Positions 9,501-58,700 of a stretch of 64,000 nt of DNA are shown here, in pieces (position 1 is the stretch's first letter; each line of letters begins with the position of its first letter). Both the position numbers and the translations under genes were made by a program. The notes under the pieces are model-generated. The model made no database searches and was not told the origin of the DNA. It worked only from the letters and a program-made list of their open reading frames with translations. The stretch comes from Actinokineospora terrae (lineage in GTDB: Bacteria > Actinomycetota > Actinomycetes > Mycobacteriales > Pseudonocardiaceae). The DNA is taken from assembly GCF_900111175.1 (NCBI RefSeq), contig NZ_FOGI01000003.1, positions 349,141 through 413,140 of the forward strand, read 5' to 3'.

Positions 9501-12500
9501 CCGACTTCAGGGCCGCCGCGACGTCCGCCGCGCCCTGGACAGCCCACTTGCCTGCGGTGACAGAGCCATCGTCGACCGGCGCCCAGTCGACCTGGTAACG
9601 CCAGTCCTCAGTGGATTCAATTCGCCGCCGGGGCTCCAGCCAGTACCGACTGCGCTGAAACGCGTAGGTCGGCAGGGCGACTCGCCGCCCACCCCACTGG
9701 GCGAAGACGGCGGACCAGTCGACGGCGACACCCCGTGTCCAAGCCGTCCCGACAGCCCGCACCAGTGCGGGTACCTCGTCTCCCGGGCGCACTGCCGGGG
9801 CCGTCACCGCACCGTCCACGCTGTGGTGCACCAGTGCGGACAGCACCCCACCCGGCCCGACCTCGACAAACGTCGCCGCGCCCGACTCGCGCACCGCCTG
9901 GCTGAACCGGACCGTCTCCCGCACCTGCCGGACCCAGTACTCCGGCGTGCTCGGGTCCCCGGCCGCGGTGCTCACCAGGGGAATCGTCGGCTTGGCGAAC
10001 GACAGCCCGGCCACGACCTGCCGGAACTCATCGAGCATCGGGTCCATCAGGTGCGAGTGGAACGCGTGCGAGACCACCAGCCGCTTCACCCGGCAGGATT
10101 GTTCAACAAACCTACGATCCAACAGCTCAACAATCCCACGATCCCCCGATACGACAATCGAACGATCCGAATTGACCGCGGCAAGGTCCACCCCGGCGGG
10201 CAGGCCATCGGAGAACTGCGCGGCCAGGTCAGCCTCGGAGATCTCCACCGCCAGCATCGCCCCACCAGAGGGCAGAGCCTGCATCAGGCTGGCTCGGGCG
10301 GCGACCAGAGTGCACGCGTCATCCAGCGTGAGAATGCCCGCGACATGGGCGGCGGCTACCTCGCCGATGGAGTGGCCCACGAGAACATCAGGGTGCACGC
10401 CCCAGGACTCCAGCAGGCGGAAGGTCGCCACCTCGACGGCGAACAGGGCCGGCTGGGCGTTGCCGGTCTGGTCGATGGCCTCGTCCGAGTACGGCAGCCG
10501 AGCCCGGACGTCGTCGAAGGCGGCCTTGAACGCCGGGAAGACCCGCAGCTCCTGGCCCATGTCCGCCTGCTGCGAACCCTGCCCCGTGAACAGGAACGCG
10601 ACCCGCCCCCGGGAGATCACCTGCCCCTCGGCCTCGAGAAGGGCCGTCCGCAGGTCATCCGTGGTCGCACCCACCACGACCAGCCGGTGGTCGAGATCAG
10701 CCCGCGCGCTGGCCAGGGACAATCCGACATCGACCGGGTCCAGGCCCGCAGAGTGCGCCGCCAGCCGCGACGCCTGTGCCCGCAGCGCGTCAGTGGAAGC
10801 CGCCGACAGCACCCACGGCACCACCGGATCGGCCGCACGAGGCTCGGCGACCACCACCGGAGCGGGCCCGGCCTGCTCGATGATCACGTGCGCGTTGGTC
10901 CCGCTCACCCCGAACGACGACACCCCGGCCCGGCGCGGCCGCTCCACACTGGGCCACGGCCGCGACTCGGTCAGCAGTGACACCGAGCCCGCCGTCCAGT
11001 CGACGTGCGGAGTCGGTTCGTCGGCGTGCAGGGTGCCGGGCAGCACGCCGCGCCGCAGGGCCTCGACGACCTTGATCACGCCAGCGACGCCGGAGGCTGA
11101 CTGCGTGTGACCGATGTTGGACTTCACCGAGCCCAACCACAGCGGCTCGGCCCGGTCCTGCCCGTAGGTCGCCAGCAGAGCTTGCGCCTCGATCGGGTCA
11201 CCGAGAACGGTTCCCGTGCCGTGCGCTTCCACCAGGTCCACATCGGACGGGGCCAGGCCGCCGACCGCGAGTGCCGCCTCGATCACCCGCTGCTGCGACG
11301 GCCCGTTGGGGGCGGTGAGGCCGTTGGAGGCGCCATCGGAGTTGACCGCCGTTCCCCGCACCACCGCGAGGATCTCGTGCCCGTTGGCGACCGCGTCCGA
11401 CCGCCGTTCGACCACGAGGATACCGACGCCCTCACCCCAGCCGGTCCCGTCCGCGTCGGCCGCGAACGAGCGGCACCGCCCGTCGACCGACAGTCCCTTC
11501 TGCCTGCTGAACTCCGTGAAGATCCCCGGGGTCGCCATGACCGTCGCGCCACCGGCCAGCGCGAGCGCGCACTCCCCATTCCGCAGTGCCTGCACGGCCA
11601 GGTGCAACGCGACCAAGCTGCTGGAGCACGCGGTGTCCACGGTGAGCGCCGGACCTTCGAGTCCGAACGTGTAAGCGAGTCGGCCGGATGCCACGCTCGT
11701 CGCGATCCCGGTCAGCGAGTGCCCCTCGGACGGCCCGCTGTCCAACCCGTACAGCGAGGTCGCGACACCCATGAACACGCCAGACCTACTGCCGTGCAAA
11801 GACATCGGGTCGATCCCGGCCCGCTCGAACGCCTCCCACGTGGTCTCCAGCAAGAGACGCTGTTGCGGGTCCATGGCGGCCGCCTCACGCGGCGAGATCC
11901 CGAAGAGCCCGGCGTCGAACTCGGTGGCCGTGCTGACGAACCCACCGGCCCGGGTGTAGGTGGTACCCAGCCGCTCGGGGTCCGGGTCGTACAGCGCGTC
12001 GAGGTCCCAGCCGCGGTCGCGCGGGAACTCGCCGATGGCGTCCACTCCGGACACCACCAGCTCCCACAGCTCTTCCGGCGACCCGGCCCCGCCGGGGAAC
12101 CGGCAAGCCATGCCCACGATCACGATGTCGTCCGCCCCGGCGTCGACCACCCGGGCCACGGTCTTCTTGGCCGCGGGTCGGGTTTCCGAGAGCAGAGCCG
12201 CGAGTGCCACCGGGGTCGGGTGGTCGAACACGATGGTCGGCGGCAGGCGCAGGCCGGTGGCCGAGTTGATCCGGTTCCGCAGTTCGACGGAGGTGAGCGA
12301 GTCGAAGCCGAGGTCCCGGAACGCCCGGCGCGGGTCGACCGCGTCGGCGGAAGCGTGGCCCAGGACCGCGGCCACGTGTTCGCGCACGAGGTCGAGCGCG
12401 TTGTCCGTGGTCAGCGACACGGCCTTCGCACGCCGTTGTGCACCGACGCTCATCCCGCGCAGGAGCGGGTGGGCCGATCGGGCGTCGACCCGCATGGGGA

Positions 12501-55700: not shown

Positions 55701-58700
55701 GGCGGGCCGAGTCGGTGGTGGGGAGGACGAGGGGGGCGAGCAGGGTCAGGTCGGCGATGGCGGGCTTGCCGACCTGGGCACCTGCGTGGAGGGCCAGGTC
55801 GACGAAGGCGGTGCCGGGGAGTACCGGGGTGCCGCGGACTGCGTGGTCGGCGAGCCAGGGGTGGGTGGCGAGGGAGAGACTGCCGGTGAGGACGAGGCCG
55901 TCGTCGAGGGTGATGGCCGCGCCGAGGAGCGGGTGGTCGGTGGGGGTGAGACCGGCGGCGGCCAGGCCCGACGTGGTGGGGGTCGGCCAGAAACGCTCGT
56001 GCTGGAAGGGGTAGGTCGGCAGGTCGATCAGTGCCCTGGGGCCGGTGTGGACGGCCTGCCAGTCCACCTCGACGCCGCGGACCCACAGGTCGCCGAGGGC
56101 GTCGGCGACGACCTCGGTCGACGGTCGCGTGCCCCTGGCCACTGGGATCCCGTCCGCGACCAGCGCCGACAGGACCGCGTCCGGGCCCATCTCGACGAAC
56201 ACCGACCCGGCCAGCCCGGCCACGGCGTCGGCGAAGCGGACCGTCTCGCGGACCTGCCGCACCCAGTACTCCGGCGTGCTCGGGTCACCCGGCGCGGTGC
56301 TGACCAGCGGGATGGTCGGCTCGGCGAACGACAGGCCAGCCACGGCGCGGCGAAAGTCCGCGAGCATCGGCTCCATGTGGTGGCTGTGGAAGGCGTGCGA
56401 CACCGCCAGCCGCTTCACCCGCCGGGACTGTTCACCAAACCTACGATCCAACAGTTCAACAATCCGACGATCCCCCGATACGACAATCGAACGATCGGAG
56501 TTGACCGCCGCGAGATCAACACCCTCGGGGAGGCCATCGGGGAACTCGGCGGCCAGGTCGGCCTCGGAGATCTCGACGGCCAGCATCGCGCCGCCGGGCG
56601 GCAGGGCCTGCATCAGCCGGGATCGGGCGGCGACCAAGGCGCAGGCGTCGGGGAGGGAGAGGATGCCCGCGACGTGGGCGGCGGCGATCTCACCGATGGA
56701 GTGGCCGACCAGGGCGTCGGGGTGGATGCCCCAGGACTGGAGCAGGCGGAAGGTCGCGACCTCGAAGGCGAACAGGGCGGCCTGGGCGTTCACCGTCTGG
56801 TCGATGGCGTCGTCGTCGAACGGCAGCCGGTCGCGGATCTCGTCGAACGCGGCACGGAACGCCGGGAAGACCCGCAGGTCCTGCCCCATCCCCGCGCGCT
56901 GCGCCCCCTGCCCGGTGAACAGGAACGCGACCTTCCTCGCCGCCGCGCGCCCCGTGCTGACCAAGGCCGAGTCCCGACCGCCCGCGAGATCCGCCAACCC
57001 CGCGCGCACCGCATCGATGTCGCCACCGCGTACCGCAGCCCGGTAGTCCAAAGCGAACCGGGTAGTCGCCAAAGCCTTGCCCAGCAAACCAACCTCGACG
57101 TCGACCCCGAGCACCCGCGCCGCCTGAGCCCGCAAGCCCACGTCCGACCGAGCCGAGAGCACCACCGGGAAGGCAGGTCCGAACACCGCGGGCTGCTCGA
57201 CCGCCACCGGAGGTTCCTCGATGATGGCGTGGGCGTTGGTGCCGCTGATGCCGAACGACGACACAGCACCACGACGGGGGCTGTCGGCGCGCGGCCAGGG
57301 CTGGGGCTGGGTGAGGAGTTCGACGGAGCCAGTGGTCCAGTCGACGTGCGGGGTTGGGGTGCTTGCGTGCAGTGTGGGCGGCAGAACGTTGCGGTTGAGC
57401 GATTCGACGAGCTTGATGAGCCCCGCCAGGCCAGCGGCGGCCTGGGTGTGGCCGATGTTGGACTTCACCGAGCCGAGCCACAGCGCGGTGGTCCGGGATT
57501 GCCCGTAGGTGGCCAGAAGGGCGTTCGCCTCGATGGGGTCGCCGAGGGTGGTTCCAGTACCGTGCGCCTCCACCACGTCCACATCGGACGGAGTCAGACC
57601 TGCGGCGGCGAGAGCGTCCTGGATGACACGTTGCTGAGCGGGCCCGTTGGGCGCGGTCAGACCGTTGGACGCACCATCGGAGTTGATCGCGGTGCCCCGG
57701 ACGACGGCCAGCACCCGGTCGCCGTCGCGGAGGGCGTCCGAGAGGCGGCGGACCGCGACGACCGCGACGCCTTCCGCCCAGCCGGTGCCGTCCGCTCCCG
57801 CCCCGAAGGCCTTGCAGCGGCCGTCAGCCGACAGCCCGCCCTGGCGGGTGAACTCGGCGAAGATGCCCGGGGTGGACATCACCGTCACGCCACCGGCGAA
57901 CGCGAGATCACACTCACCGGACCGCAGCGACCGCGCGGCCAAGTGCAGCGCGACAAGCCCACCGGAGCACGCCGTGTCCAGGGTAATGGCCGGTCCCTCG
58001 AACCCGAACGTGTAGGCGATCCGTCCAGAGGCGACACTCGCGGTGTTGCCGGTCAGCAGGTAACCCGCGGTGTCGTCGCCCGCTTCGTGCATGCGCGGCC
58101 CGTACTCCTGGGCCATCGCGCCGACGAACACCCCGGTTCGACTGCCGCGCAACGAGGCCGGATCCACTCCAAGGCGCTCAATGGCCTCCCAGGTGACCTC
58201 CAGCAAGTGCCGCTGCTGCGGGTCCATGGCCAGCGCCTCGCGCGGTGACACCCCGAACAGCGCGGCGTCGAAACCGGCGATGTCCGCGAGGAACCCGCCG
58301 CGCTCGGGCAGGCCGTCCAGGTCCCAGCCACGGTCGGTCGGCGGCGGGCTCAGTGCTTCCCGACCCTCTGACACCAACTGCCACAGGGCTTGCGGCGAGT
58401 CGATGCCCCCAGGGAGCCTGCACGCCATCGACACGATCGCGATCGGCTCATCGGAGGCGACAGCGACCCTGCGCCGCACGACCGGGGTCGACGCCCCGCG
58501 CAGGTACTCAGCGACCGCATGGGGCGTCGGGTGGTCGTACAACAGCGTGGTCGGCAACCGGACCCCGGTGGCCGCCGAGAGCCGGTCTCGCAGTTCGACC
58601 GCCGTCAACGACTCGAATCCCAGGTCCTTGAACGTCAGCCCCGGGTCGACGGCTCCGCTGAAGCCACCGACCACGGCTGTATGCGCGAGAACCAGGTCGA

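Follow-up and report, generated by a model that had tools for sequence, protein, structure and literature searches.

This analysis concerns a 72-bp cassette that recurs in the acyltransferase (AT) domains of a giant type I polyketide synthase (PKS) cluster of Actinokineospora terrae, within a stretch of 64,000 nucleotides (the window; contig C16, positions 349141-413140), and several described systems resemble it in part. Rickettsia palindromic elements are palindromic repeats that lie in frame in unrelated protein genes, but they are insertions, whereas the AT cassette takes the place of a segment as long as itself, with no gap relative to ATs that do not carry it. In PKS genes, genetic repeats of intense nucleotide skews (GRINS) were reportedly described by Nivina et al. 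in 2021. As defined in two reports (PMC10394414, PMC9899208), GRINS share with the cassette that they are recoded, repeated stretches with skewed bases and gene conversion; the cassette differs in its length of 72 bp, its low G+C, its 8-bp periodicity and the presence of copies in unrelated genes and promoters. Repetitive extragenic palindromic (REP) sequences are short palindromic repeats (PMC3733652), and in one relative (G013) our arrays also lie mostly at gene ends, with some within genes. The unpaired GTAG or CGTC tag at one end of REP sequences was not noticed in the arrays, although no search aimed at it was made. Palindromic amphipathic repeat coding elements (PARCELs; PMC2996958) are likewise dispersed coding repeats with dyad symmetry; however, they are 25-residue protein repeats in tandem open reading frames (ORFs), whereas the cassette is built on an 8-bp DNA unit in conserved enzyme domains.

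The window covers the middle part of the cluster: AT matches extend on C16 (624,911 b, in a genome of 7.59 Mb, G000) from ~300 to 446 kb, and the PKS region totals 147 kb (C16:300-447 kb). Ten of the 14 ATs in the window carry the cassette, all on the minus strand of three giant PKS ORFs (Table 1). A BLAST search of the same genome returned 15 copies (71-72 bp, 88-100% identity), all within the PKS cluster and five of them outside the window, plus a partial match of 38 bp at C16:521066 and two further rows (E values of 0.89 and 5.8). For comparison, we used 16 genomes of the genus, among them the relatives coded G003, G005, G008 and G012, a further relative coded G013, and 390 genomes of the family. 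We propose, with a probability of about 0.6, that the cassette is a DNA-level, in-frame array of degenerate, self-complementary 8-bp words, which is kept as DNA, which gene conversion centred on it likely copies from one AT module to another, and which is predicted to serve as a binding array for an FCD/GntR (FadR-like) regulator.

An earlier note on this DNA had described these segments as nearly identical, about half G+C and written in rare codons. Indeed, the ten window copies are 92-100% identical, with the same exact 72-mer at three places, and their G+C is 43-50%. When synonymous divergence and G+C were followed along the aligned copies, a sharply bounded island was observed in which synonymous sites are nearly identical. 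Among the 15 copies of this genome, the two 24-nt bins that lie entirely within the island had a synonymous divergence of 0.06 and 0.13, compared to 0.26-0.58 in upstream and 0.22-0.65 in downstream bins, and G+C at third codon positions fell to 0.50 and 0.39 in the core bins from 0.75-1.00 in the flanks. The three relatives agree, with core bins at 0.21/0.11 (G008), 0.16/0.14 (G005) and 0.26/0.02 (G003), but the higher of the two values is not below the lowest flank bins in G003 (0.26) and G008 (0.21). Relative synonymous codon usage, taken from the two PKS ORFs that are complete in the window, identifies as rare six of the seven codons that had been named (ATT 0.21, TTT 0.07, GTT 0.23, GTA 0.11, CAA 0.33, AGG 0.31), whereas TTG (0.69) is only mildly uncommon. 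Recoding the segment synonymously with PKS codon usage yielded a G+C of 0.655 (sd 0.027), with a minimum of 0.53 in 20,000 draws, as against the 0.43-0.50 observed.

Each cassette is a degenerate array with a period of 8 bp, made of the words GATTGTTG/CAACAATC, approximately RAYWRTYS, a self-complementary pattern that, apart from a shift, reads the same on both strands. Phase tables from 70 cassettes of four genomes read roughly G/A-A-T/C-N-G-T-N-G/C. The self-similarity of the 72-mer at shifts of 8, 16, 24, 32 and 40 is 0.55, 0.54, 0.69, 0.55 and 0.50, compared to 0.09-0.36 at other shifts, and 0/500 codon-order shuffles matched it at shifts 8, 16, 24 and 32. A motif-free scan of the low-G+C parts of the cluster detected the 8-bp period in the 15 cassettes, with elevated values also in two islands of a single further gene; it was not seen in the remaining low-G+C islands of the cluster. 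A detector, a cyclic 8-phase matrix built from the 70 cassettes, found 10/10 window cassettes and had no match in three shuffles of the window. On the whole of C16 it marked 17 places, namely the 15 cassettes, one decayed AT copy and one ATP-binding cassette (ABC) transporter gene; elsewhere in the genome it marked one place in 60 kb of contig C20 and none in 135 kb (seven stretches).

Orthologous giant PKS clusters, with 18-19 islands each, were found in G003, G005 and G008, and the 21 ATs with an HAFH motif in G000 and in G008 stand in one-to-one order. In G003 and G005, ATs also carry a second island (site 2, the cassette being site 1) in which the words run on the reverse strand and use other codons (e.g., loci L064 and L057). 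Site 2 lies ~50-100 nt after HAFH, where G+C drops below 56% in 10/20 ATs of G003 and 6/20 of G005, and its array changes GLSFxxPTIP to GLSFNNPTIPLLNSS in both species; such an island was seen in 0/21 ATs of G000 and 0/21 of G008. The description of one segment per AT domain is thus incomplete. Arrays at both AT sites were also found in G250, a genome of a second genus (g25). Moreover, YASH-type ATs of G012 contain period-8 arrays in loops of ~20-36 residues that resemble insertions. At the position of that loop, the YASH-type AT at G000:C16:337928 and its orthologues in G003, G005 and G008 have a G+C-rich extension of ~20 residues, possibly an old decayed array.

We then compared each octamer score with those of 400 synonymous recodings per copy, in which amino acids and G+C were held fixed. 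The score was reached by at most 3/400 recodings in each of 12 site-1 copies (three per genome) and by at most 6/400 in each of 10 site-2 copies. Single cases gave 1/400 (AT17 of G005), 0/400 (AT19 of G008) and 11/400 (the ABC gene); the G+C-rich AT19 of A. terrae gave 95/400, and four flank controls 85, 3, 169 and 223 of 400. It should be noted that the site-1 result is partly circular because the matrix was trained on site 1, so that only site 2, AT17 and the ABC gene are independent. Codon choice in these arrays spells 8-bp words beyond what amino acids and G+C impose. A protein-level repeat was rejected, since a period of 8 cannot be divided by 3 and codon choice matters. A conserved RNA hairpin is likewise unlikely, since the 70 cassettes fold weakly on either strand (mean z from -0.3 to -1.9), although two single copies reached -3.2 and -1.5 and intergenic copies in relatives form strong folds.

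The islands also resist the G+C turnover of their surroundings. Where a codon ends in A/T, its orthologue encodes the same residue with a G/C ending at a frequency of 0.11 (n=357) and 0.14 (n=410) in the island, compared to 0.71-0.76 in seven of eight flank bins and 0.46 in the eighth, which holds site 2. Since turnover is low in the islands and fast in the flanks, the islands seem to be actively kept, and what is kept in the cassette appears to be its DNA sequence. One of the explanations put forward in the earlier note, selection on the nucleic acid, is supported, for DNA. AT19 of A. terrae illustrates the loss of an island: it differs from its orthologue at 17/72 positions in the island, compared to 6/180 and 17/240 in the flanks; 13 of the 17 changes are from A/T to G/C and none is the reverse, while residues are conserved. 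The A/T state at these 13 positions is common to two outgroups at 12 and 11 of them.

Another explanation from the earlier note, that the segment seeds gene conversion or serves as a recombination site, is supported as well. For pairs in which both members have a cassette (14 for G000/G008, 18 for G005/G003), the orthology signal is 0.56/0.53 at -400 and 0.56/0.81 at +190, but drops to 0.01-0.07 in the island. Homogenisation within genomes reaches 0.20-0.51 there (G000/G008) and 0.10-0.28 (G005/G003), with bins outside mostly at 0-0.1. The ketosynthase domains of the same modules showed homogenisation of -0.02 to 0.04 and kept their orthology (0.14-0.86), and YASH-type ATs, which served as an internal control, gave -0.03 to 0.03. 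In 28/28 and 35/36 cases, the island most closely related to a given one is a paralogue, and 14 of the 17 long high-identity stretches (570-750 bp) in the 147-kb PKS region contain a cassette. Since orthology is lost at the island, where the copies of each genome are also most alike, conversion between modules appears to be centred there; it is the likeliest cause of the alike copies, and we prefer it over parallel selection alone, although parallel selection towards one word could account for part of the signal. A GRINS-like, skewed high-identity stretch that has no cassette was noted at C16:373980-374550 (window 24840-25410).

The same words occur outside PKS genes, so that the statement in the earlier note that no named element of this kind was known is incomplete. 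They are found in the ABC-transporter gene and between genes, and the word GGATTGTTGAACAATC, with one mismatch allowed, is present in 196/390 family genomes, compared to one genome for the reversed control among the matches listed. Many of the 30 loci examined with this word are promoter-like single sites. In 10/16 genomes of the genus, an array adjoins or precedes an FCD/GntR gene, in its promoter, and the adjoining gene carries Pfam FCD and GntR in all ten loci checked (A. terrae and nine others). In A. terrae the array is the one on C20, with the FCD/GntR gene at L105:15262-15999. The divergent neighbour is a major facilitator superfamily transporter in A. terrae, and an ORF of similar size faces the FCD/GntR gene in the others. 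The word TTGTTGAACAA fits tnGTnnnACna, which we take to be the half-site pattern of FadR-type regulators. The arrays thus resemble FadR-type (FCD) GntR operators in flanking FCD/GntR genes, with binding as a prediction only; they differ in that the cassettes are long arrays deep within coding sequence and not in promoters.

In the mechanism that we hypothesize, the array of 8-bp words would be kept within AT coding sequence for its DNA, short-tract conversion centred on it would spread and level the copies among AT modules, and an FCD/GntR-type regulator, which has these words in its own promoter too, would bind the cassettes. Candidate effects of such binding are a local block or tuning of transcription along a cluster on the 100-kb scale, or breaks followed by conversion. 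More tentatively, and with somewhat less than even odds, the arrays may represent a new class of element: strand-symmetric operator arrays with an 8-bp beat that overwrite coding DNA in place, codon by codon and at unchanged length, wherever the protein tolerates the words, acting both as FCD/GntR binding tracks and as a conversion focus that keeps dozens of PKS modules alike.

Several observations weigh against this interpretation. One of the four flank controls scored as low in the codon test (3/400) as the cassettes. The bins immediately upstream of the island vary strongly (0.58), and conversion tracts would therefore have to be very short. The G+C-rich synonymous rewrite of AT19, with conserved residues, is not explained by conversion from a paralogue. 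GntR dimers prefer an inverted pair of half-sites, whereas site 1 has mostly direct ones, and 0/7 FCD genes of A. terrae lie on the PKS contig. Moreover, among 16 arrays of G013, seven lie between convergent genes, five between co-directional genes, three in genes and one between divergent genes, counts that rest on crude gene calls and on stretches half of which were chosen around known matches. The copies at gene ends in G013 are REP-like rather than operator-like, which is the main result against a plain operator.

Among the rival explanations, a GRINS-like recoded repeat, that is, a PKS-specific skewed stretch that promotes conversion with no binding protein, is improbable. The cassettes are recoded and repeated, conversion appears centred on them, and their coding strand shows G-over-C and T-over-A skew (GC skew 0.40 and TA skew 0.30 in A. 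terrae); by the 0.15 skew rule, as given in PMC9899208, 6/15 cassettes lie in qualifying stretches. However, TA skew is only 0.08-0.10 in G003/G005, and of the 17 high-identity stretches seven pass 0.15, six of them with a cassette, and none passes 0.25 on both skews. The island measures ~72 bp against the ~1 kb (at least 500 bp, at high identity) of GRINS, and although 14/15 cassettes lie within the 570-750-bp stretches, neither the low G+C nor the low synonymous divergence extends beyond the island. Control PKS regions (five from Streptomyces and one from a Pseudonocardia plasmid; 300 kb, 44 ATs) contained 25 GRINS-like stretches of ~1 kb with a G+C of 0.71-0.75, none with an 8-bp period, and their 44 ATs gave no matrix match, no period 8 and a site-1 G+C of 0.62-0.82. 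Words outside PKS genes are also at odds with a PKS-specific element. Just as improbable is a REP-like or miniature inverted-repeat transposable element, a dispersed palindrome that inserted into genes and then spread across modules, its word having no cellular function. The insertion-like loops of G012 and the dispersed copies of G013 and G012 fit this explanation, as many of the latter stand at gene ends and form strong hairpins (fold z -8.3, -7.6, -5.2 and -5.1). In contrast, the AT cassette aligns without gap to a solved AT chimera, is longer than the compact 20-40-bp REP hairpin, has an 8-bp beat, and folds weakly on average, and a functionless repeat would be expected to drift to high G+C. 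Y1 transposase, the partner of REP sequences, was found in 0/5 array-bearing genomes (G000, G003, G005, G008, G012), with one Y1/RAYT match each in G013, G001 and G250.

Less probable still is the idea that Lsr2, which silences AT-rich DNA in actinobacteria, uses the islands as landing sites at intervals along the cluster. By the criteria in PMC6584129, an AT-rich 6-mer core is present in 15/15 islands, and the islands, which make up 0.9% of the 147-kb region, hold 52/119 cores and 492/712 AT-rich 20-mers; a general preference for AT would nevertheless not impose 8-bp words at fixed G+C. Slowed translation during folding of the AT subdomain, also suggested in the earlier note, has very little left in its favour: these ORFs rarely use the codons in question, and the segment always occupies one position within the domain, but 8-bp words are encoded at fixed amino acids and G+C, the second island carries reverse-strand words with other codons, words stand between genes, and the control ATs are G+C-rich at the same place. 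For each of slow translation, GRINS and REP, a feature that was tested contradicts the explanation. Hardly credible is a conserved helix whose DNA would be a by-product of recent duplication; the copies do encode nearly the same peptide, yet the core bin, with a synonymous difference of 0.02-0.14, is no more conserved in its amino acids than its flanks (identity 0.66-0.86 at -75), and the flanks of the same copies have diverged.

How pieces pass between the modules of assembly-line synthases is an open question with value for engineering, and the apparent exchange point is narrowed here to ~100 bp in four species. The arrays clearly exemplify how one stretch can carry a DNA code on top of a protein code within conserved catalytic domains. 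Since this code can be erased synonymously with the enzyme untouched, cause and effect are testable, and a concrete candidate reader is available in the FCD/GntR gene that adjoins these words.

Table 1. Arrays, ATs and PKS ORFs (window positions, except for G012)
Feature	Position	Strand	Remark
PKS ORF, open at window edge	1..21849	-	cassettes 10097, 15689, 19718
PKS ORF, 7858 aa	21906..45482	-	cassettes 24028, 29575, 37489, 43321
PKS ORF, 5248 aa	45508..61254	-	cassettes 47708, 51824, 56426
Octamer-array cassette in AT, reference copy	10097..10168	-	identical to 29575 and 51824
Octamer-array cassette in AT	15689..15760	-	C16:364829-364900, 96%
Octamer-array cassette in AT	19718..19788	-	C16:368858-368928, 96%
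Octamer-array cassette in AT	24028..24099	-	C16:373168-373239, 97%
Octamer-array cassette in AT, identical copy	29575..29646	-	exact 72-mer
Octamer-array cassette in AT	37489..37559	-	C16:386629-386699, 97%
Octamer-array cassette in AT	43321..43392	-	C16:392461-392532, 92%; G008 orthologue without cassette
Octamer-array cassette in AT	47708..47779	-	C16:396848-396919, 92%
Octamer-array cassette in AT, identical copy	51824..51895	-	exact 72-mer
Octamer-array cassette in AT	56426..56496	-	C16:405566-405636, 94%
Decayed array, same AT position	6078..6147	-	C16:355218-355287; GC 0.60, detector score 22; 3-mismatch core
HAFH-type AT without cassette	33147..34016	-	G008 orthologue has cassette
HAFH-type AT without cassette	1189..2034	-	GC-rich, alanine-rich helix
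YASH-type AT, no island	58828..59742	-	internal control
Period-8 arrays of G012	C1:200283, 208902, 229470, 234883, 168826		YASH-type ATs and another PKS region

Beyond the cluster, the full cassette was found by BLAST in 4/390 family genomes and some match in 20/390, with at most two candidates scored per genome. A plasmid origin was rejected, as 72,556 plasmid records gave one weak 30-bp match, and viral contigs gave 0 matches to a strict two-operator pattern. In other phyla, a 22-bp array pattern matched 13 contig stretches, one of which is Actinokineospora sp. NBRC 105648; of the remaining 12, nine score nothing, and the other three have weak scores (20-27) and seem isolated. A search for the sequence words and octamer terms returned no relevant description in the literature collection covered. 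Bacteroidota and metagenomes contain tandem FNNSTIQQ proteins (31 proteins, P0001-P0031), presumably translated from a different 8-bp repeat, and no link to the cassette was found.

The arrays of G013 are dispersed, six of them in a contiguous 200 kb. One lies in a short-chain dehydrogenase gene (G013:C1:5639162, L180) and fits the NNAG motif; another is within a 1050-aa gene that by eye resembles a non-ribosomal peptide synthetase condensation domain (G013:C1:7382048, L191). In genus g25, a conserved intergenic site with two operator-like words was observed in many species (L114-L121, L124, L125). In genus g7, the exact word stands just upstream of a start reading MRLRRCGTDAVLVE or similar, in a gene that by eye encodes a 5-oxoprolinase subunit (L141, L146, L150, L154).

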